From positions 1 through 40,680 of the forward strand of contig NZ_JABCJJ010000023.1 in assembly GCF_012952065.1 (NCBI RefSeq): 40,680 bases of DNA, given 5' to 3'. Of this stretch, positions 29,941 through 36,106 are shown in pieces. The notes below the pieces were generated by a model. The model searched no databases. It saw nothing but the letters and a program-made list of their open reading frames with translations, and had not been told where the DNA came from. The number at the start of each line of letters is the position of its first letter. Position 1 is the first letter of the stretch. Source of the DNA: Cellulomonas fimi (GTDB taxonomy: Bacteria; Actinomycetota; Actinomycetes; Actinomycetales; Cellulomonadaceae). The translations under genes and the position numbers were made by a program.

Positions 29941-29975
29941 GATGGGGTGACCGCCGTGCGAGCCGAGGAGCGTCC

Positions 29976-31532
29976 ATGACCACCACCGAGCCGGGAACCA
30001 CCACCGAGCCGGGCACCACCACCGAGCCGGAGACCGGCACCGAGCCCAAGACCGGGACGGCGACCGGGGCCGGGCCGCTGACCTACGACGTCGTCGTCGT
30101 GGGCGCCGGCGCTGTCGGCGAGAACGCTGCGGACCGCGCGGGACGGACCGGGCTGAGCGTCGCCGTCGTCGAGTCCGAGCTCGTGGGTGGCGAGTGCTCG
30201 TACTGGGCGTGCATGCCGTCCAAGGCGCTGCTGCGCGCGGGTGCCGTCGTGGAGGCAGCGCGCGCGGTGCAGGGTGCCGCGGCCGCCGTGACGGGACCGG
30301 TCGACCGCGACGGCGTCCTCGCGCGCCGGGACTCGTTCACCCACGACTGGGACGACGCGAGCCAGGTCGAGTGGCTCGACAGCGTGGGGATCGCCCTCGT
30401 CCGCGGCAGCGCGCGGTTCACCGGACCTCGTCGGCTCGAGGTGACCGACGACGACGTCGGCACCCGCGTGCTCGTCGCGCGCCGCGCCGTCGTGGTCGCG
30501 ACGGGCAGCGAGCCCGTGGTGCCCGACGTCGCCGGGCTGGCCGAGTCGGCACCGTGGACCAGCCGCGAGGCGACCTCGGTCCAGGACGTGCCCGCCTCGC
30601 TCGCGATCATCGGTGGCGGCGTGGTCGCCGTCGAGATGGCGACCGCGTTCGCCGACCTCGGGGCACGCGTGACCGTGCTGGTGCGGGGCGACCGCCTGCT
30701 CGCCGGCACGGAGCCGTTCGCGGGCGGGGCCGTCGCGGAGTCGCTCGTGCGGCGCGGCGTGGAGCTCCGGTTCGGGACCGAGGCGACCCGCGTCGTCCGC
30801 GACGACCACGGCGTCCACCTGACCCTGACCCGCGGCGACCCGCTGCACGCGGCGGAGGTGCTGGTCGCCACGGGTCGGCGGCCGCGGACCGGTGACCTGG
30901 GCCTCGAGACGATCGGGCTGACGCCGGGTGAACCGCTCCGCGTCGACGACCAGCTGCGCGTCGAGGCGGTCGCGGACGGGTGGCTCTACGCGGTCGGTGA
31001 CGTGACGGGCCGCGTCGCGACGACGCACCAGGGCAAGTACGACGCCCGTGTCGCGGGTGACGTCGTCGCCGCCCGCTTCGCGCCGGCGGGCTCGGCGCAG
31101 GGTCCCGCCGTCGACGCCGAGAGAGACGTCGAGGGGGCGGGGCAGTGGTCGCGGTACCGCGCCACGGCCGACCACGCGGCGGTACCACAGGTCGTGTTCA
31201 CGCGGCCCGAGGTGGCGACGGTCGGGCTCACGGAGGCCGCGGCGCGCGAGGCCGGCCACGCGGTGCGCACGGTCGAGGTGGACCTGAGCCAGGTGGCCGG
31301 CGCCTCGGTCGCGGCGGACGACTACCGCGGCACGGCTCTCCTCGTGGTGGACGAGGACCGTGAGGTGCTGCTCGGGGCCACGTTCGTGGGACCGGACGTC
31401 GCCGAGCTCCTGCACGCGGCGACCGTCGCCGTGGTCGGGGAGGTGCCGCTGCACCGCCTGTGGCACGCGGTCCCCGCGTACCCGACGGTGAGCGAGGTGT
31501 GGCTGCGGCTTCTCGAGGGCTACGGGCTGTGA
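29976..31532 (+). CDS. LpdA-like pyridine nucleotide-disulfide flavoprotein
   Basis: 518 residues; ATG after GAGGAG. An N-terminal low-complexity leader made of three TTTEPG-type repeats (18-bp DNA repeat, 29979-30032) precedes the FAD domain at VVVVGAGAVGENAA. Redox motif GGECSYWACMPSKAL has a CX4C pair (Cys74, Cys79); NAD domain ASLAIIGGGVVAVEMA; FAD-binding GWLYAVGDVTG; dimerisation domain VFTRPEVATVG. The C-terminal active-site segment reads AVPAYPTVSE where lipoamide dehydrogenases have HAHPTLSE, so the catalytic histidine is missing. This is as in the Mycobacterium tuberculosis LpdA (Rv3303c) quinone-reductase group, so a quinone or other acceptor is likelier than lipoamide. Confidence 0.88.
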   Translation: MTTTEPGTTTEPGTTTEPETGTEPKTGTATGAGPLTYDVVVVGAGAVGENAADRAGRTGLSVAVVESELVGGECSYWACMPSKALLRAGAVVEAARAVQGAAAAVTGPVDRDGVLARRDSFTHDWDDASQVEWLDSVGIALVRGSARFTGPRRLEVTDDDVGTRVLVARRAVVVATGSEPVVPDVAGLAESAPWTSREATSVQDVPASLAIIGGGVVAVEMATAFADLGARVTVLVRGDRLLAGTEPFAGGAVAESLVRRGVELRFGTEATRVVRDDHGVHLTLTRGDPLHAAEVLVATGRRPRTGDLGLETIGLTPGEPLRVDDQLRVEAVADGWLYAVGDVTGRVATTHQGKYDARVAGDVVAARFAPAGSAQGPAVDAERDVEGAGQWSRYRATADHAAVPQVVFTRPEVATVGLTEAAAREAGHAVRTVEVDLSQVAGASVAADDYRGTALLVVDEDREVLLGATFVGPDVAELLHAATVAVVGEVPLHRLWHAVPAYPTVSEVWLRLLEGYGL

Positions 31533-31551: not shown

Positions 31552-32556
31552 TCAGCTCGTCGCGAGCACGGCGTCCGACGAGAACACGAGGCCGAGCGTG
31601 ATCTTGCCCTGCTGAAGCGCTGTCTTCGTGAGCGGTCCGCCGGCGTCGAGCGACGTGAACTGCGCGATGTCGAGCCCGTAGGTCTCCTCGAGGCCCGGCT
31701 GGCAGAACGGACGCTCGGGGCACTCGGGCGGACCGCCGAGCAGCAGGCCACCGCACGCTTCGCCGAGGTCGCTGAGCGTCGTCAGATCGTGCTCCTCGGC
31801 GAACTCGACCGTGACCGCGAAGGCGTTCTGGTCCTGGGCCGCAGCGGGCTCACCGAACGTGAGCCCGACGCCCTCGCCCAGCCGGCGCAGCTCCGTCATC
31901 GTCTCGTCCAGGTCGGAGCTCGCGACCGGCGGCGCGTCCGCGCCGTTCGCGCTCTTGTTGAGGAACTCGGTCAGGGTGCCGACGTACTCGGGCACGACCG
32001 TGAGCTGCCCGGACTGGAGGGCCGGCGCGTAGGTCTCGCGGTTGCCGATCGTCTGCGTGCTCGCGGCATAGCCGGCGGAGCGCAGGACCCCGGCGTAGAT
32101 CTCCGCGAGAGTCGCGCTCTCCGAGAAGTTCCCGGCGCCCACCACGACAGGCTTGCCCGCCCCGACCATGTCCTGCGCGTCGAGCCCGTTCGACTCGAGG
32201 TACTCCGCGGCGACCTGCGTGGAGGTCTGGCGATCGACGTCCACGGCCTTGTTGAGGGCGATCAGCGTCTCGGTGTCGAGCGTCGCCGACACGGCGTCGA
32301 GCAGGGACACGATCGTCGTGTCGCCCGCGACCACGGCGGCGTTGATCGCGGGCACGATGTTGTCGACCGTCTGCAGGCCCTGGTCGTCCTCGAGCACGAC
32401 CAGCCGGTCGCCCGGGATCGGCTCGCACGTCGCGGGGGCCCCGTCGGCCGCGGCCGACGTGGGGTCGGAGGCCCCGGACGAGCCGGCCTGGCCGCAGCCC
32501 GCGGTGAGCAGCAGGAGCACGAGGGAACCGCCGAGCACCGATCGACGTGAGCGCAT
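31552..32556 (-). CDS. Quaternary-amine ABC substrate-binding lipoprotein, permuted
   Basis: 334 residues; ATG at 32556. Signal with SRRSVLGG (Tat-like) and lipobox LTAGC (Cys21). The domain order is abnormal. Residues 51-120 (RLVVLEDDQGLQTVDNIVPA, LLDAVSATLDTETLIALNK, VDVD, VAAEYL) are what an OpuAC/ProX-type protein normally has at its C-terminus. Residues 136-334 (PVVVGAGNFSESATLAEIYA ... QSGQLTVVPEYVGTLTEFL ... GLVFSSDAVLATS) are the normal N-terminal and middle parts, ending exactly where the LVVLEDD segment should follow. It therefore looks like a circular permutation of the choline/glycine-betaine binding fold, with all pieces present once. It is the last gene after the two permeases. 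Confidence 0.9.
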   Translation of the reverse strand: MRSRRSVLGGSLVLLLLTAGCGQAGSSGASDPTSAAADGAPATCEPIPGDRLVVLEDDQGLQTVDNIVPAINAAVVAGDTTIVSLLDAVSATLDTETLIALNKAVDVDRQTSTQVAAEYLESNGLDAQDMVGAGKPVVVGAGNFSESATLAEIYAGVLRSAGYAASTQTIGNRETYAPALQSGQLTVVPEYVGTLTEFLNKSANGADAPPVASSDLDETMTELRRLGEGVGLTFGEPAAAQDQNAFAVTVEFAEEHDLTTLSDLGEACGGLLLGGPPECPERPFCQPGLEETYGLDIAQFTSLDAGGPLTKTALQQGKITLGLVFSSDAVLATS

Positions 32557-32665: not shown

Positions 32666-33373
32666 TCACGATCCGGTCGAGGCGCGGAGCGGGCCGGGCC
32701 TGCGGGTGCGCATCGCCCGTGGTGTGAGCCGACGCTGCGCGAGCGCGAGGACGCCCTCCGCGAGGAGGCACAGCCCTGCGACCAGGATGCCGCCGGCGAG
32801 GACCTCGCCGAACCGCCGCGTGGCGAGGCCGGTGATGATGATGGGACCCAGTCCGCCGCCCCCCACGAGCGCCGCGAGGGGCACGGTCGCGATGACCTGG
32901 ACGGTGGCGGTGCGCACGCCGGCGGCGATCAGGGGCAGGGCGAGCGGCAGCTCGACGAGTGCGAGCGACCGCGGGCGCGACATGCCCATCCCGCGGGCGG
33001 CGTCGCGGACACCGCGGTCGACGTCCCGCAGACCCGCGTACGTGCTGCTCAGCATCGGCGGCACCGCGAAGATCGCGGCCGCCAGCACCGTGGGCCGGTT
33101 CCCGAAACCGATCGAGGTGGACGCGAACAGGAGCAGGAGCGCGAACGTCGGCAGGGCCCGCGACGTGTTGGCGAGCGCGACCGTCGCGGCTCCGCCGCCC
33201 CGCCGTTGGCCGAGCCAGACGCCGACCGGGAGCGCGACGGCCGCCGCGAGCAGCACGGCGAGCACCGACATGCCGAGGTGCTCGAGCGTGAGGGCGGTGA
33301 TGCCCTGCGGCCCGCGCCAGTTGAGCGGGTCGTTGAGCCAGACGAACGCGTCGCCGACGATGGACGTGCTCAT
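32666..33373 (-). CDS. Quaternary-amine ABC transporter permease 1
   Basis: 235 residues; ATG at 33373 overlaps the stop of the upstream permease. BPD transport domain of the OpuCB/OpuCD type with about six helices: an LALPVGVWLGQ-like opening (VALPVGVWLGQRRG), NTSRALPTFALLLLF, the EAA loop VRDAARGMGMSRPRSLALVELP and ALVGGGGLGPIIITGLA. Residues 1-35 keep the periplasmic WLNDPLNW lead typical of one permease of the pair. Osmolyte or choline uptake is the likely role. Confidence 0.9.
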   Translation of the reverse strand: MSTSIVGDAFVWLNDPLNWRGPQGITALTLEHLGMSVLAVLLAAAVALPVGVWLGQRRGGGAATVALANTSRALPTFALLLLFASTSIGFGNRPTVLAAAIFAVPPMLSSTYAGLRDVDRGVRDAARGMGMSRPRSLALVELPLALPLIAAGVRTATVQVIATVPLAALVGGGGLGPIIITGLATRRFGEVLAGGILVAGLCLLAEGVLALAQRRLTPRAMRTRRPGPLRASTGS

Positions 33374-34056
33374 GATCGCCGGCCCGCCGCCCACGGCGTC
33401 GCGAGCCTCCCGGCGAGCGCCAGCAGCAGGTCCGCGGCGAACGCGATGACGAGGCACAGCACGGTCGCGGTCACGATCTCGGCGCGGTAGGCGCTGTTGA
33501 ACCCGCGGTACATGAGCTGGCCGAGCCCGCCGTAGCCGACGACGACGCCGATGGTGACCAGGGCGACGGTCGTCACCGTCGCGAGCCGCAGGCCGACGAC
33601 CACGGACGGCAGCGCGTTCGGGAGCTCGACCGTCACCAGCATGCGCATCCGGCCGTAGCCGAGCCCGCGGGCGGCGTCGACCACCCCGGGATCCACGCCC
33701 TCGAGCCCCACGAGGACGTGGCGGACCAGCACGAGCAGCGCGTACCCGACGAGCCCGATCAGCACCGTGGTGCGGCCGATGCCGGTGAACGGCGCGAGGA
33801 TCGCGAACAGCGCGACCGACGGCACGGTGTAGAGGACGCCCGAGACCCCCAGGACGGCGGCGGCGAGCCGCGGGCGGCCGTGCACCAGCGCCGCGAGCGG
33901 TAGTGCGACGGCGAACGCGACGAGCACCGCCTGGACGGTCAGCGTGAGGTGCTGCCCCAACGCCTCCGCGATGTCCGCCCGGTTGGCCTCGACGTAGCTC
34001 CAGGAGAACCACGGGTTGGCGACGGGCGGCGCCTCGGCCCACGATCTCGCGTCCAC
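33370..34056 (-). CDS. Quaternary-amine ABC transporter permease 2
   Basis: 228 residues. The GTG at 34056 is supported by TAACCT (34064-34069) 7 bases upstream on the minus strand; no Shine-Dalgarno is present. BPD permease: SWSYVEANRADIAEALGQHL, LYTVPSVALFAILAPFTGIG, the EAA loop VVDAARGLGYGRMRMLVTVELP and IGVVVGYGGLGQLMYRG. First gene of the leftward permease-permease-binding-protein operon. Confidence 0.9.
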   Translation of the reverse strand: MDARSWAEAPPVANPWFSWSYVEANRADIAEALGQHLTLTVQAVLVAFAVALPLAALVHGRPRLAAAVLGVSGVLYTVPSVALFAILAPFTGIGRTTVLIGLVGYALLVLVRHVLVGLEGVDPGVVDAARGLGYGRMRMLVTVELPNALPSVVVGLRLATVTTVALVTIGVVVGYGGLGQLMYRGFNSAYRAEIVTATVLCLVIAFAADLLLALAGRLATPWAAGRRS

Positions 34057-34063
34057 CGCCCGG

Positions 34064-34069
34064 AGGTTA
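34064..34069 (-). promoter_or_regulatory. -10 box, leftward leaderless promoter
   Basis: Minus-strand TAACCT ends 7 bases before GTG 34056. It is back-to-back with the rightward promoter at 34096, within 40 bases. Confidence 0.6.
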
Positions 34070-34095
34070 CTCGGCGCGCGGCCGGTCGGCGCGGG

Positions 34096-34101
34096 TAGCG
34101 T
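34096..34101 (+). promoter_or_regulatory. -10 box, rightward leaderless promoter
   Basis: TAGCGT ends 7 bases before ATG 34109. The two divergent -10 boxes leave only 26 bases between them, so the -35 regions interlock with the opposite promoter and expression of the two arms is probably linked. Confidence 0.6.
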
Positions 34102-34108
34102 GCCGCGC

Positions 34109-35182
34109 ATGACGACCGACGCAGGCCCGAGGCGCGAACCGACGGGTGACCCGGTCATCCGGTTCGAGGCCGCGCGCAAGGAGTACCCCGACGGCACCGT
34201 CGCCGTCGAGGGACTCGACCTCGACGTCCGCGAGCACGAGCTGCTCGCCCTGGTGGGCCCCTCCGGGTGCGGCAAGTCGACCATCCTGCGGATGGCTAAC
34301 CGCCTCGTCGAGCTGACCTCGGGCCGAGTGCTCGTCGAGGGGACCGACGTCGCGCAGGTCGACCCGGTGCGGCTGCGGCGCCGGATCGGCTACGTCATCC
34401 AGGACGTCGGGCTGTTCCCGCACCGCACGGTCGCGCAGAACATCGGGACCGTCCCCGCGCTCCTGGGCTGGGACGCCCGGCGGACCCGCAGCCGCACGGC
34501 CGAGCTGCTCGAGCTCGTCGGCCTCGAGCCGGGCACGTACGCGCGCCGTTACCCCCACCAGCTCTCGGGGGGCGAACGGCAGCGCGTCGGGGTGGCCCGC
34601 GCACTCGCCGTCGACCCGCCGGTGCTGCTCATGGACGAGCCGTTCGGAGCCGTGGACCCCGAGGGCAGGCGCCGGCTCCAGCAGGAGTTCTGGCGCATCC
34701 AGCGCGAGCTCGGGACCACGGTCATGCTCGTCACGCACGACATCGACGAGGCGGTGCGGCTCGGCGACCGGATCGCGGTGCTCAGCCGGGGCGGCCACCT
34801 CGAGCAGCTCTCCGACGCCGTCGAGCTGCTCGCGCGGCCCGCGCCCGGGATGGTCACGGACTTCGTCGGCTCCGGACGGGCGGTCCGGCTGCTCGGCATC
34901 GGGCGTGTGACGCCGGCCGACCTCGCCCCGAGCGACGAGCAGAGGCCCGGGGCGCTGCACGTCGGCGCGCGGCTCGACGACGCGCTCGCGGCCCTCGCGT
35001 CGTCGGGCGGCGAGGCGGTCCCGGTGACGGGCGACGGGGGCGTCGTCGTCGGCCGCCTCACGTCCCAGGGCCTCCTCGCGGCGCTGGCACGCATGGTGGA
35101 GGAGAGCGGGGACGACGCCGGGGACCGCGGTGCGGGCGCCGAGGTCGACGGCCCGCGCGGGAACGGTCAGGTCGCTCGATAG
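34109..35182 (+). CDS. Quaternary-amine ABC transporter ATP-binding protein
   Basis: 357 residues. Walker A GPSGCGKSTILRMANRL (about residue 50; the MANRL ending is typical of OpuCA/ProV-type ATPases), Q-loop YVIQDVGLFPHRTV, signature LSGGERQRVGVARAL, Walker B VLLMDEPFGAVDP and VTHDIDEAVRLGDRI. After residue 270 a single CBS-like segment (LHVGARLDDALAALASSGGE and GRLTSQGLLAAL) matches the osmosensing tail of OpuA-type ATPases, but only one repeat is clear. It energises the permeases and binding protein encoded divergently. Confidence 0.92.
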   Translation: MTTDAGPRREPTGDPVIRFEAARKEYPDGTVAVEGLDLDVREHELLALVGPSGCGKSTILRMANRLVELTSGRVLVEGTDVAQVDPVRLRRRIGYVIQDVGLFPHRTVAQNIGTVPALLGWDARRTRSRTAELLELVGLEPGTYARRYPHQLSGGERQRVGVARALAVDPPVLLMDEPFGAVDPEGRRRLQQEFWRIQRELGTTVMLVTHDIDEAVRLGDRIAVLSRGGHLEQLSDAVELLARPAPGMVTDFVGSGRAVRLLGIGRVTPADLAPSDEQRPGALHVGARLDDALAALASSGGEAVPVTGDGGVVVGRLTSQGLLAALARMVEESGDDAGDRGAGAEVDGPRGNGQVAR

Positions 35183-35191: not shown

Positions 35192-36106
35192 ATGACCCCA
35201 CCGCGCGTCGCCCTGGCCACCTGCTCCGCCTTCCCGGAGATGGAGGCCGACGAGGCGCCGCTGATCCCCGCGCTCGGCGAACGTGGCGTCGAGGCGGTCC
35301 CCGCGGTCTGGGACGACCCGGAGGTCGACTGGAGCGCGTTCGACCTCGTGGTCGTGCGGAGCACCTGGGACTACACCCCGCGGCACGAGGAGTTCCTGGC
35401 CTGGGCGTCGGGCGTCCCGCGCCTCGCGAACCCGGCGGAGGTGCTCGCCTGGAACACCGACAAGTCCTACCTGCGGGACCTCGAGCAGGCCGGTCTCCCG
35501 GTGGTCCCCACGATCTGGCTGGACCCCGCGCGCAACCTCACGTCGCGTGCGGTCCACACCCGGTTCCCCGCGAGCGGGGAGTTCGTCGTCAAGCCGACCG
35601 TGAGCGCGGGCGCCCAGGACACGGGCCGCTACCAGTCCAACGAGGCGCACCAGCGCGGGATGGCGATCGTCCACGCGCGCGACCTGCTCCGTGCGGGCCG
35701 CCACGTGATGGTCCAGCCGTACCTCGAGCGTGTCGACACGGTGGGCGAGACGGCGCTGGTGTACCTCGACGGGAAGTTCAGCCACGCGGTGCGCAAGGGT
35801 GCCCTGCTCCAGGGCCCGTACCGCGGGGTCGAGGGGCTCTTCAAGCCCGAGGACATGACGGCACGCGAGGCGACGCCGCAGGAGCGCGCGCTCGCCGACC
35901 GCATCATGGCCGCCGTCCCGTCCGTCGTGCCGGGTGCGGCCGACCGGCCGTTGCTCTACGCGCGCGTCGACCTGCTCCCCGACGCCGACGGCAACCCGAT
36001 GCTGCTCGAGCTCGAGCTGACCGAGCCCTCGCTGTTCCTCGGCCTGGACGACGGCGCCCTCGACCGGGCCGCGGACGCGATCGCCGCGCGCGTGGCCTTC
36101 GCCTGA
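35192..36106 (+). CDS. ATP-grasp domain protein
   Basis: 304 residues. The N-terminal pre-ATP-grasp part has VALATCSAFPEMEADEAPLI and FDLVVVRSTWDYTPRHEEFL. ATP-grasp elements follow: NTDKSYLRDLEQAGLPVVPT, FVVKPTVSAGAQDTGRY (ATP-binding Lys and glycine loop), the VMVQPYLE hinge, and the metal-binding YARVDLLPDADGNPMLLELE. It is similar to RimK/glutathione-synthetase-like ligases that join an acid to an amine at ATP cost. The product is unknown. Confidence 0.87.
   Translation: MTPPRVALATCSAFPEMEADEAPLIPALGERGVEAVPAVWDDPEVDWSAFDLVVVRSTWDYTPRHEEFLAWASGVPRLANPAEVLAWNTDKSYLRDLEQAGLPVVPTIWLDPARNLTSRAVHTRFPASGEFVVKPTVSAGAQDTGRYQSNEAHQRGMAIVHARDLLRAGRHVMVQPYLERVDTVGETALVYLDGKFSHAVRKGALLQGPYRGVEGLFKPEDMTAREATPQERALADRIMAAVPSVVPGAADRPLLYARVDLLPDADGNPMLLELELTEPSLFLGLDDGALDRAADAIAARVAFA

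Follow-up and report, generated by a model that had tools for sequence, protein, structure and literature searches.

Natural circular permutation of substrate-binding proteins is already known, from OpuAC as compared with ProX and from TpMglB-2. Permutation relations among glycine betaine-binding proteins, including B. subtilis OpuAC (2b4l), were reported by CPSARST, and the circular permutants shown in that report share less than 24% identity (PMC2395249). T. pallidum TpMglB-2, a tethered binding lipoprotein that has Gram-positive homologues as well, is likewise a natural circular permutant, but it has a sugar-binding Type I/Cluster B fold and not a cluster F fold (PMC4990184). Conventional module order is found in the OsmF/AfProX type (PF04069; NF049931), of subcluster F-III in the sense that PMC9732360 gives it for EgtUC and AfProX, and in S. 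pneumoniae EgtU, whose PF04069-type solute-binding domain has an aromatic cage for ergothioneine and shares one chain with the permease (PMC9732360).

Here, we analysed a 40,680-nucleotide stretch of Cellulomonas fimi DNA (contig NZ_JABCJJ010000023.1, positions 1 to 40,680; hereafter the window), in which a minus-strand ORF (31552–32556, ATG start) encodes a 334-residue lipoprotein with a signal peptide and a lipobox cysteine, Cys21. Like the OsmF/AfProX type, this protein has both homologous modules, the same predicted fold, and ATPase and permease partners. It differs from that type in carrying Asn244 and Asp65 for AfProX Tyr111 and Tyr214, in its additional Cys44 and Cys268, and in its module order: conventional proteins read N1-N2-C, whereas the window protein reads C-N1-N2 (order W; pA). 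The window protein is very probably a genuine circular permutant of a PF04069 lipoprotein of the OsmF/ProX type that serves the neighbouring ABC importer; it would have arisen in place by tandem duplication and trimming, keeping flytrap binding, with its anchor on domain D2, a cysteine staple, and a ligand that is probably not glycine betaine.

The PF04069 modules of the window protein are swapped

The whole window protein scored 131.6 bits against PF04069 (gathering score 21.2), and the two pieces alone scored 40.5 and 93.2 bits. Residues 51–120 matched profile positions 188–255 (E 3.1e-10 for the piece alone, from which the coordinates are taken), and residues 135–332 matched positions 1–184 (E 2.6e-26 as a separate piece, 5.1e-38 within the full-length sequence). 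The profile order is thus not kept, as 188–255 precedes 1–184, and each profile position is used once except for a few at the joints. In a phmmer comparison with A. fulgidus ProX (1sw1), the order was reversed likewise: window residues 135–303 aligned to 6–170 and residues 51–125 to 200–273. N2 ends at the point where conventional proteins continue with LVVLEDD, and among 94 order W proteins the tail C-terminal to N2 is 2–11 residues long. A swapped module order had been proposed from the sequence-only reading, and the separate matches of both pieces, in reversed order, confirm that the window protein is a PF04069 lipoprotein with swapped module order. The same reading had the lipoprotein signal directly preceding the LVVLEDD module; the order holds, but a 28-residue linker intervenes. 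The module borders and the neighbouring genes are given in Table 1.

Table 1. Features of the binding-protein gene and of the adjoining importer genes in the window
Feature	Residues	Position (strand)	Description	Basis
Signal peptide and lipobox	1–21	32494..32556 (−)	Lipidated Cys21	Translation; Cys21 invariant in 35-row alignment
Linker with Cys44	22–49	32410..32493 (−)		AF2 pLDDT ~50 to residue 40; Cys44-like in 94/94 order W
Module C	50–126	32179..32409 (−)	Conventional C-terminal part LVVLEDD...VDVD, here first	PF04069 188–255
New linker	127–134	32155..32178 (−)	Joins old C-terminus to old N-terminus	Median 9 residues, range 7–10 (n = 94)
Module N1	135–266	31759..32154 (−)	D1 core and first part of D2	PF04069 1–184 together with N2; module HMMs
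Module N2	267–334	31555..31758 (−)	Remainder of D2; Cys268 and ECPERPFC loop	PF04069; module HMMs
Cys44 codon	44	32425..32427 (−)	Proposed disulfide partner of Cys268	94/94 order W; isolated strand bridge at residue 43 (model)
Cys268 codon	268	31753..31755 (−)		94/94 order W, 0/45 conventional; isolated bridge at residue 269 (model)
Permease, BPD_transp_1		32666..33373 (−)	Directly upstream of binding-protein gene, 109-bp gap	PF00528 E 2.1e-20
Second permease, BPD_transp_1		33370..34098 (−)	Start approximate	PF00528 E 9e-13
ABC ATPase, same importer		34109..35182 (+)	Divergent; start by eye	PF00005 E 4.3e-34 for 34064–35182

The ORF contains no internal stop, and its third-position GC is 0.81 in the signal peptide and 0.91–1.00 in the five segments that follow. 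After rotation to a common order, its closest conventional homologues are 54–55% identical to it. Against the OsmF equivalog NF049931, the window protein reached 86.3 bits in two reversed stretches, below the cut-off of 400, and a conventional sister (L248) also fell below it with 102.5 bits. Profile searches split permuted proteins into two partial matches, which can hide them. For comparison among loci, the modules were cut by window residues into N1 (135–266), N2 (267–330, extending to 334 in the gene) and C (50–126); on this basis order X (pB) is N2-C-N1, and order Y consists of the second half of N2, C, N1 and the first half of N2 and is represented by two distinct lineages (pD and pE).

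A complete predicted fold, with the cut placed in domain D2 by alignment

AlphaFold2, run with 35 aligned members, returned one confident, complete two-domain fold (mean pLDDT 90.4, pTM 0.82), in line with the single two-lobe fold anticipated earlier. Each ten-residue block from 41 to 330 had pLDDT ≥ 91, and up to residue 40 the value was about 50. Alignments by VIA and Foldseek run along the chain order. Conventional PF04069 structures (AfProX, OsmF, OpuCC, EgtU and others) aligned by VIA-align within residues 129–334 only, over 183–193 residues, while four B. subtilis OpuAC entries aligned within residues 39–266, over 192–194 residues, and module C therefore precedes N1 in OpuAC, which agrees with the permutation relations reported by CPSARST. 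OpuAC is N2-C-N1, unlike the window protein, which failed to align with this topology colinearly from end to end; a model of an order X protein aligned to OpuAC over residues 38–316, and no conventional PF04069 structure was among the 50 matches listed for that model. OpuAC itself was too distant to be found by sequence with the module profiles.

To place the cut we used the domain limits given for EgtUC in PMC9732360 (D1, 233–331 and 445–506; D2, 341–432; linkers between them). Window residue 333 corresponds to EgtUC 427 in the structural alignment, which would put the order W cut inside D2, only a few residues ahead of linker 2. The new termini had been expected at the inter-lobe hinge, where they might affect opening or presentation; they are indeed close to linker 2, but the cut itself is inside D2. 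Judging from this alignment, both inter-domain linkers should stay covalently intact; they seem unchanged, whereas TpMglB-2 gains a fourth crossover (PMC4990184). We also considered that the cut removes one inter-domain crossing and that the cysteine pair bridges the domains. This idea was dropped because LVVL, by the EgtUC limits, forms the last part of D2; neither linker is then lost, and the proposed disulfide stays inside that domain.

By the same offset (± a few residues), the order X cut (window residues ~268–270) is near EgtUC 363 and the order Y cut (~298) near 392. Every cut found, at three places in orders W, X and Y, falls in D2, and conventional termini are in D1; this is an observation on the fetched loci, which are the best matches, and D1 cuts may occur among weaker ones. 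Each permutation would thus shift the lipid anchor to the other domain, from D1 to D2. Natural cut sites of this kind mark positions that tolerate new termini and are useful for sensors built on the fold.

Order W in other genomes and its operon

From the 142 relatives found in a scan of genome contigs, we took the best 80, and an order W gene was present in all four other genomes of the genus of the window. Six-frame ORFs from 90 loci showed order W in 87; the three others (L001, L004 and L090) are further places matched by the searches. Three of the 87 (L002, L003 and L085) are the window itself, leaving 84, and two more are identical to other loci (L088 to L012, and L089 to L008 from C. aerilata). 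The remaining 82 distinct loci comprise 80 in named genome records and two of the four from the genus of the window; all but one are complete, L076 being ended by its contig at residue 293. Frameshift, truncation and duplication as causes of order W are ruled out by these 82 loci, which bears out the preference of the sequence-only reading for permutation.

Order W occurs, among other hosts, in Cellulomonas, Actinotalea, Demequina, Sanguibacter, Geodermatophilus, Blastococcus, Motilibacter and Catellatospora. In a sample of 394 genomes of the class, full-length order W (a row from residue ≤ 19 to ≥ 333) was present in 17, the genome of the window included. Two order W loci, in records titled Spirochaetaceae MAG (L051) and Bacillus sp. 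AZ43 (L083), branch inside actinobacterial clades and are likely mislabelled or contaminating sequence. The genome of the window also encodes a conventional PF04069 protein (G000:C9:6647-7390, L001; profile positions 2–256 in one piece), and thus both orders coexist in one genome. On plasmids, 215 records matched and none had a single place covering 80% of the query. A Mycobacterium ulcerans plasmid (L259:3300-4058, NZ_CP083743.1) encodes a PF04069 protein in which module C precedes N1; the annotation calls it a glycine betaine binding protein, and the 7.5-kb stretch shown has no permease annotation.

The window gene stands in an ABC-importer neighbourhood with permeases and ATPase beside it. 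Using its permeases and ATPase as tblastn queries against the fetched flanks (~5 kb where the contig allows), we found both a permease and an ATPase at 76 of the 80 order W loci of named records, so that homologues of the same order do stand beside similar permeases, as foreseen. The four exceptions are two loci at contig ends (L027 and L046), one on a 3.9-kb contig (L047) and one without an ATPase match (L015); the two genes are present at two additional order W loci (L140 and L252) as well. Both were likewise found at 8 of 12 order X loci (L130 and L131 had neither; L129 and L132 had no ATPase match), at 2/2 loci in each Y lineage, at 8 of the 9 conventional sisters of order W (L249 had neither) and at all 10 conventional relatives of X and Y. 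The permease and ATPase are kept across the orders, and the binding-protein gene thus seems to have changed topology while the operon stayed. Two further ORFs were noted nearby. A 304-aa ORF at 35192–36106 matches nothing in Pfam with E ≤ 0.1, and a pyridine nucleotide-disulfide oxidoreductase gene (29946–31532), convergent with the binding-protein gene, has matches in the flanks of 43 of the 80 order W loci of named records.

Several permuted orders within one phylum

In the phylum of the window, three permuted orders (W, X and Y) exist among the PF04069 proteins that such operons encode. A maximum-likelihood tree of 73 rows was built from sequences rotated to one order, with order W thinned at 68% identity and conventional proteins at 85%, and with the window re-added. 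This tree requires 6 changes of order (one for W, three for X and one for each Y lineage), and an 84-row tree requires 8 (X 5), with three added X rows on long branches and of uncertain placement. If only strongly supported branches are counted, X forces one change on 73 rows and two on 84, and the conventional label forces three and four. The trees have no inferred root, and some changes may be returns to the conventional order, which are themselves permutations. A single clade for all X rows of the 73-row tree was rejected (p-AU 0.00012, the group being chosen after the tree was seen), which rejects one origin for order X. The two Y lineages are on opposite sides of a 100/100 branch with conventional rows on each side. 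As different cuts mean different events and Y is split by that branch, our reading of the trees is that at least five events would have occurred: W once, X twice and Y twice.

Order W forms one clade with moderate support (83/66 on 73 rows; 96/76 on 84 rows). Its sister is a conventional group (L186–L190, L193–L195 and L198), also with moderate support (82/84 and 85/79). A young case is L133, with 78% identity to a conventional homologue. Two order X proteins (L243:4070-6352 and L244:4527-6605) have PF04069, with C before N1, fused to a peptidoglycan-binding domain and a polysaccharide deacetylase; the X assignment is based on an N2 match in L243 and was made by eye in L244. No importer gene matches were found in their flanks, and the binding domain has apparently been reused here in a cell-wall enzyme.

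A literature search, covering titles and abstract openings of the papers listed, mostly outside subscription journals, found no permuted binding proteins of this actinobacterial family. To the extent of that search, four features are new: PF04069 cuts of the W and Y kinds, conventional relatives this close, the recurrence of permutation, and a cysteine pair exclusive to order W. Conventional and permuted proteins are here 54–78% identical, with the same kind of operon and of permease, which makes the genetic route and the functional cost of permutation directly testable.

Cysteine pairs and ligand pocket

Cysteines at the positions of Cys44 and Cys268 were present in all 94 order W proteins. 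None of 45 conventional proteins had a cysteine near the 268 position, two (L159 and L160) had one near linker 2, and nine OsmF-like rows have Ile or Leu at the 268 position. The two cysteines trace to one origin of order W, and their co-occurrence counts as one event. In the window model, DSSP assigns isolated strand bridges at residues 43, 241, 260 and 269, and the order X model has likely equivalents of the bridges at 241 and 260, at 291 and 310. This leaves residue 43 to pair with residue 269, the neighbours of Cys44 and Cys268, and the model suggests that these cysteines perhaps form a disulfide. Another pair, Cys279/Cys285, flanks the pocket arginine in 42 of 45 conventional and 11 of 11 order X proteins and is absent from the nine OsmF-like rows; it is the older of the two pairs.

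The ligand contacts given for AfProX in PMC10087775 are Y63, D109, Y111, R149, Y190 and Y214. Their alignment equivalents in the window protein are Y191, D242, N244, R282, F325 (placed by its offset from where the aligned range ends) and D65. Tyr191, Asp242 and Arg282 thus equal AfProX Tyr63, Asp109 and Arg149, and the four-aromatic cage of AfProX (Y63, Y111, Y190 and Y214) is here Y191, N244, F325 and D65. As two of its four tyrosines are replaced by Asn244 and Asp65, the ligand is probably not glycine betaine and might, at a guess, carry a protonated amine. The pocket columns of order W are common to its conventional sisters: N244 and D65 are invariant in 35 order W rows and occur in 8/9 and 9/9 of the sisters, respectively; a change in specificity hence probably preceded the permutation.

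Origin of the permutation and alternative explanations

The usual route to circular permutation is an in-frame tandem duplication with trimming at both ends. For order W, the binding-protein gene would have been duplicated in place, in frame and in tandem; loss of the start of the first copy and the end of the second, with the signal peptide kept, would have followed, and the old termini would now be connected by a short linker. Joins of 7–10 residues fit this route, and the order W gene occupies the same place as the conventional gene in sister operons. No duplication intermediate, an ORF with two copies of a module, was found in the fetched loci; L129 had a weak second N1 match (E 0.02). Since the D1/D2 core, both inter-domain linkers and the pocket residues Tyr191, Asp242 and Arg282 are kept, the Venus-flytrap binding function is predicted to be retained. 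The new N-terminus, and hence the lipid anchor, would have moved from D1 to a place on D2 next to linker 2, and a Cys44–Cys268 disulfide specific to this lineage may pin the freed first strand onto D2.

More broadly, we put forward tentatively, with doubt slightly outweighing confidence, that circular permutation is recurrent in this family and perhaps still active. There would have been at least five in-place rewirings in one phylum, at three sites in D2, each moving the anchor from D1 to D2 with the permeases, ATPase and pocket unchanged, and in the lineage of the window a new disulfide would have replaced the lost backbone connection.

What drove the changes can be read in more than one way. 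Neutral topological drift is quite possible, though we stop just short of favouring it: the termini are close, cuts in D2 loops would be tolerated, and given a long flexible linker the position of the anchor would be irrelevant and the change of no functional consequence. It accords with the recurrence of order changes on both trees (6 on 73 rows, 8 on 84) while operon and pocket columns are constant, and with lipobox linkers that are flexible in both forms (median 29 residues in 94 order W and 20 in 43 conventional proteins; a lipobox-like motif was present within the first 90 residues in 85/85 proteins). However, all cuts found are in D2, which is only about one third of the chain, and order W is kept throughout its clade together with its exclusive cysteine pair. 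The confinement of cuts at three places to D2 would instead suit an adaptive relocation of the anchor, selected repeatedly because a tether moved from D1 to D2 alters how the protein reaches and leaves the two permeases; tethering was likewise raised as a possible reason for the permuted TpMglB-2 (PMC4990184). We regard this as unlikely, since the independent events are few, and cuts in D1 may be structurally worse or have been missed among weaker matches, the best matches being those examined. If anchor relocation does matter, it has implications for the docking of tethered binding proteins on importers.

A chimera whose N-terminal module derives from another PF04069 gene is very improbable. 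The C part had its best match outside the sister clade in 4 of 16 order W rows (L008 to L120, L083 to L093, L062 to L112 and L184 to L095), but this module is short, and mean identities of the N and C parts rank the groups alike (0.51/0.45 for the sister clade, 0.46/0.42 for the next and 0.43/0.38 for others). Moreover, the nearest conventional proteins of the window are L186–L188 for the N part (0.58–0.60) and L189 for the C part (0.52), all of one sister clade, and both parts of L133 are closest to conventional homologues of one and the same family group, f17 (0.81–0.84 and 0.68–0.70). That a frameshift, misassembly or annotation error hides the usual order has a negligible likelihood, as the gene is a single ORF and order W recurs in the other distinct loci, isolates included.
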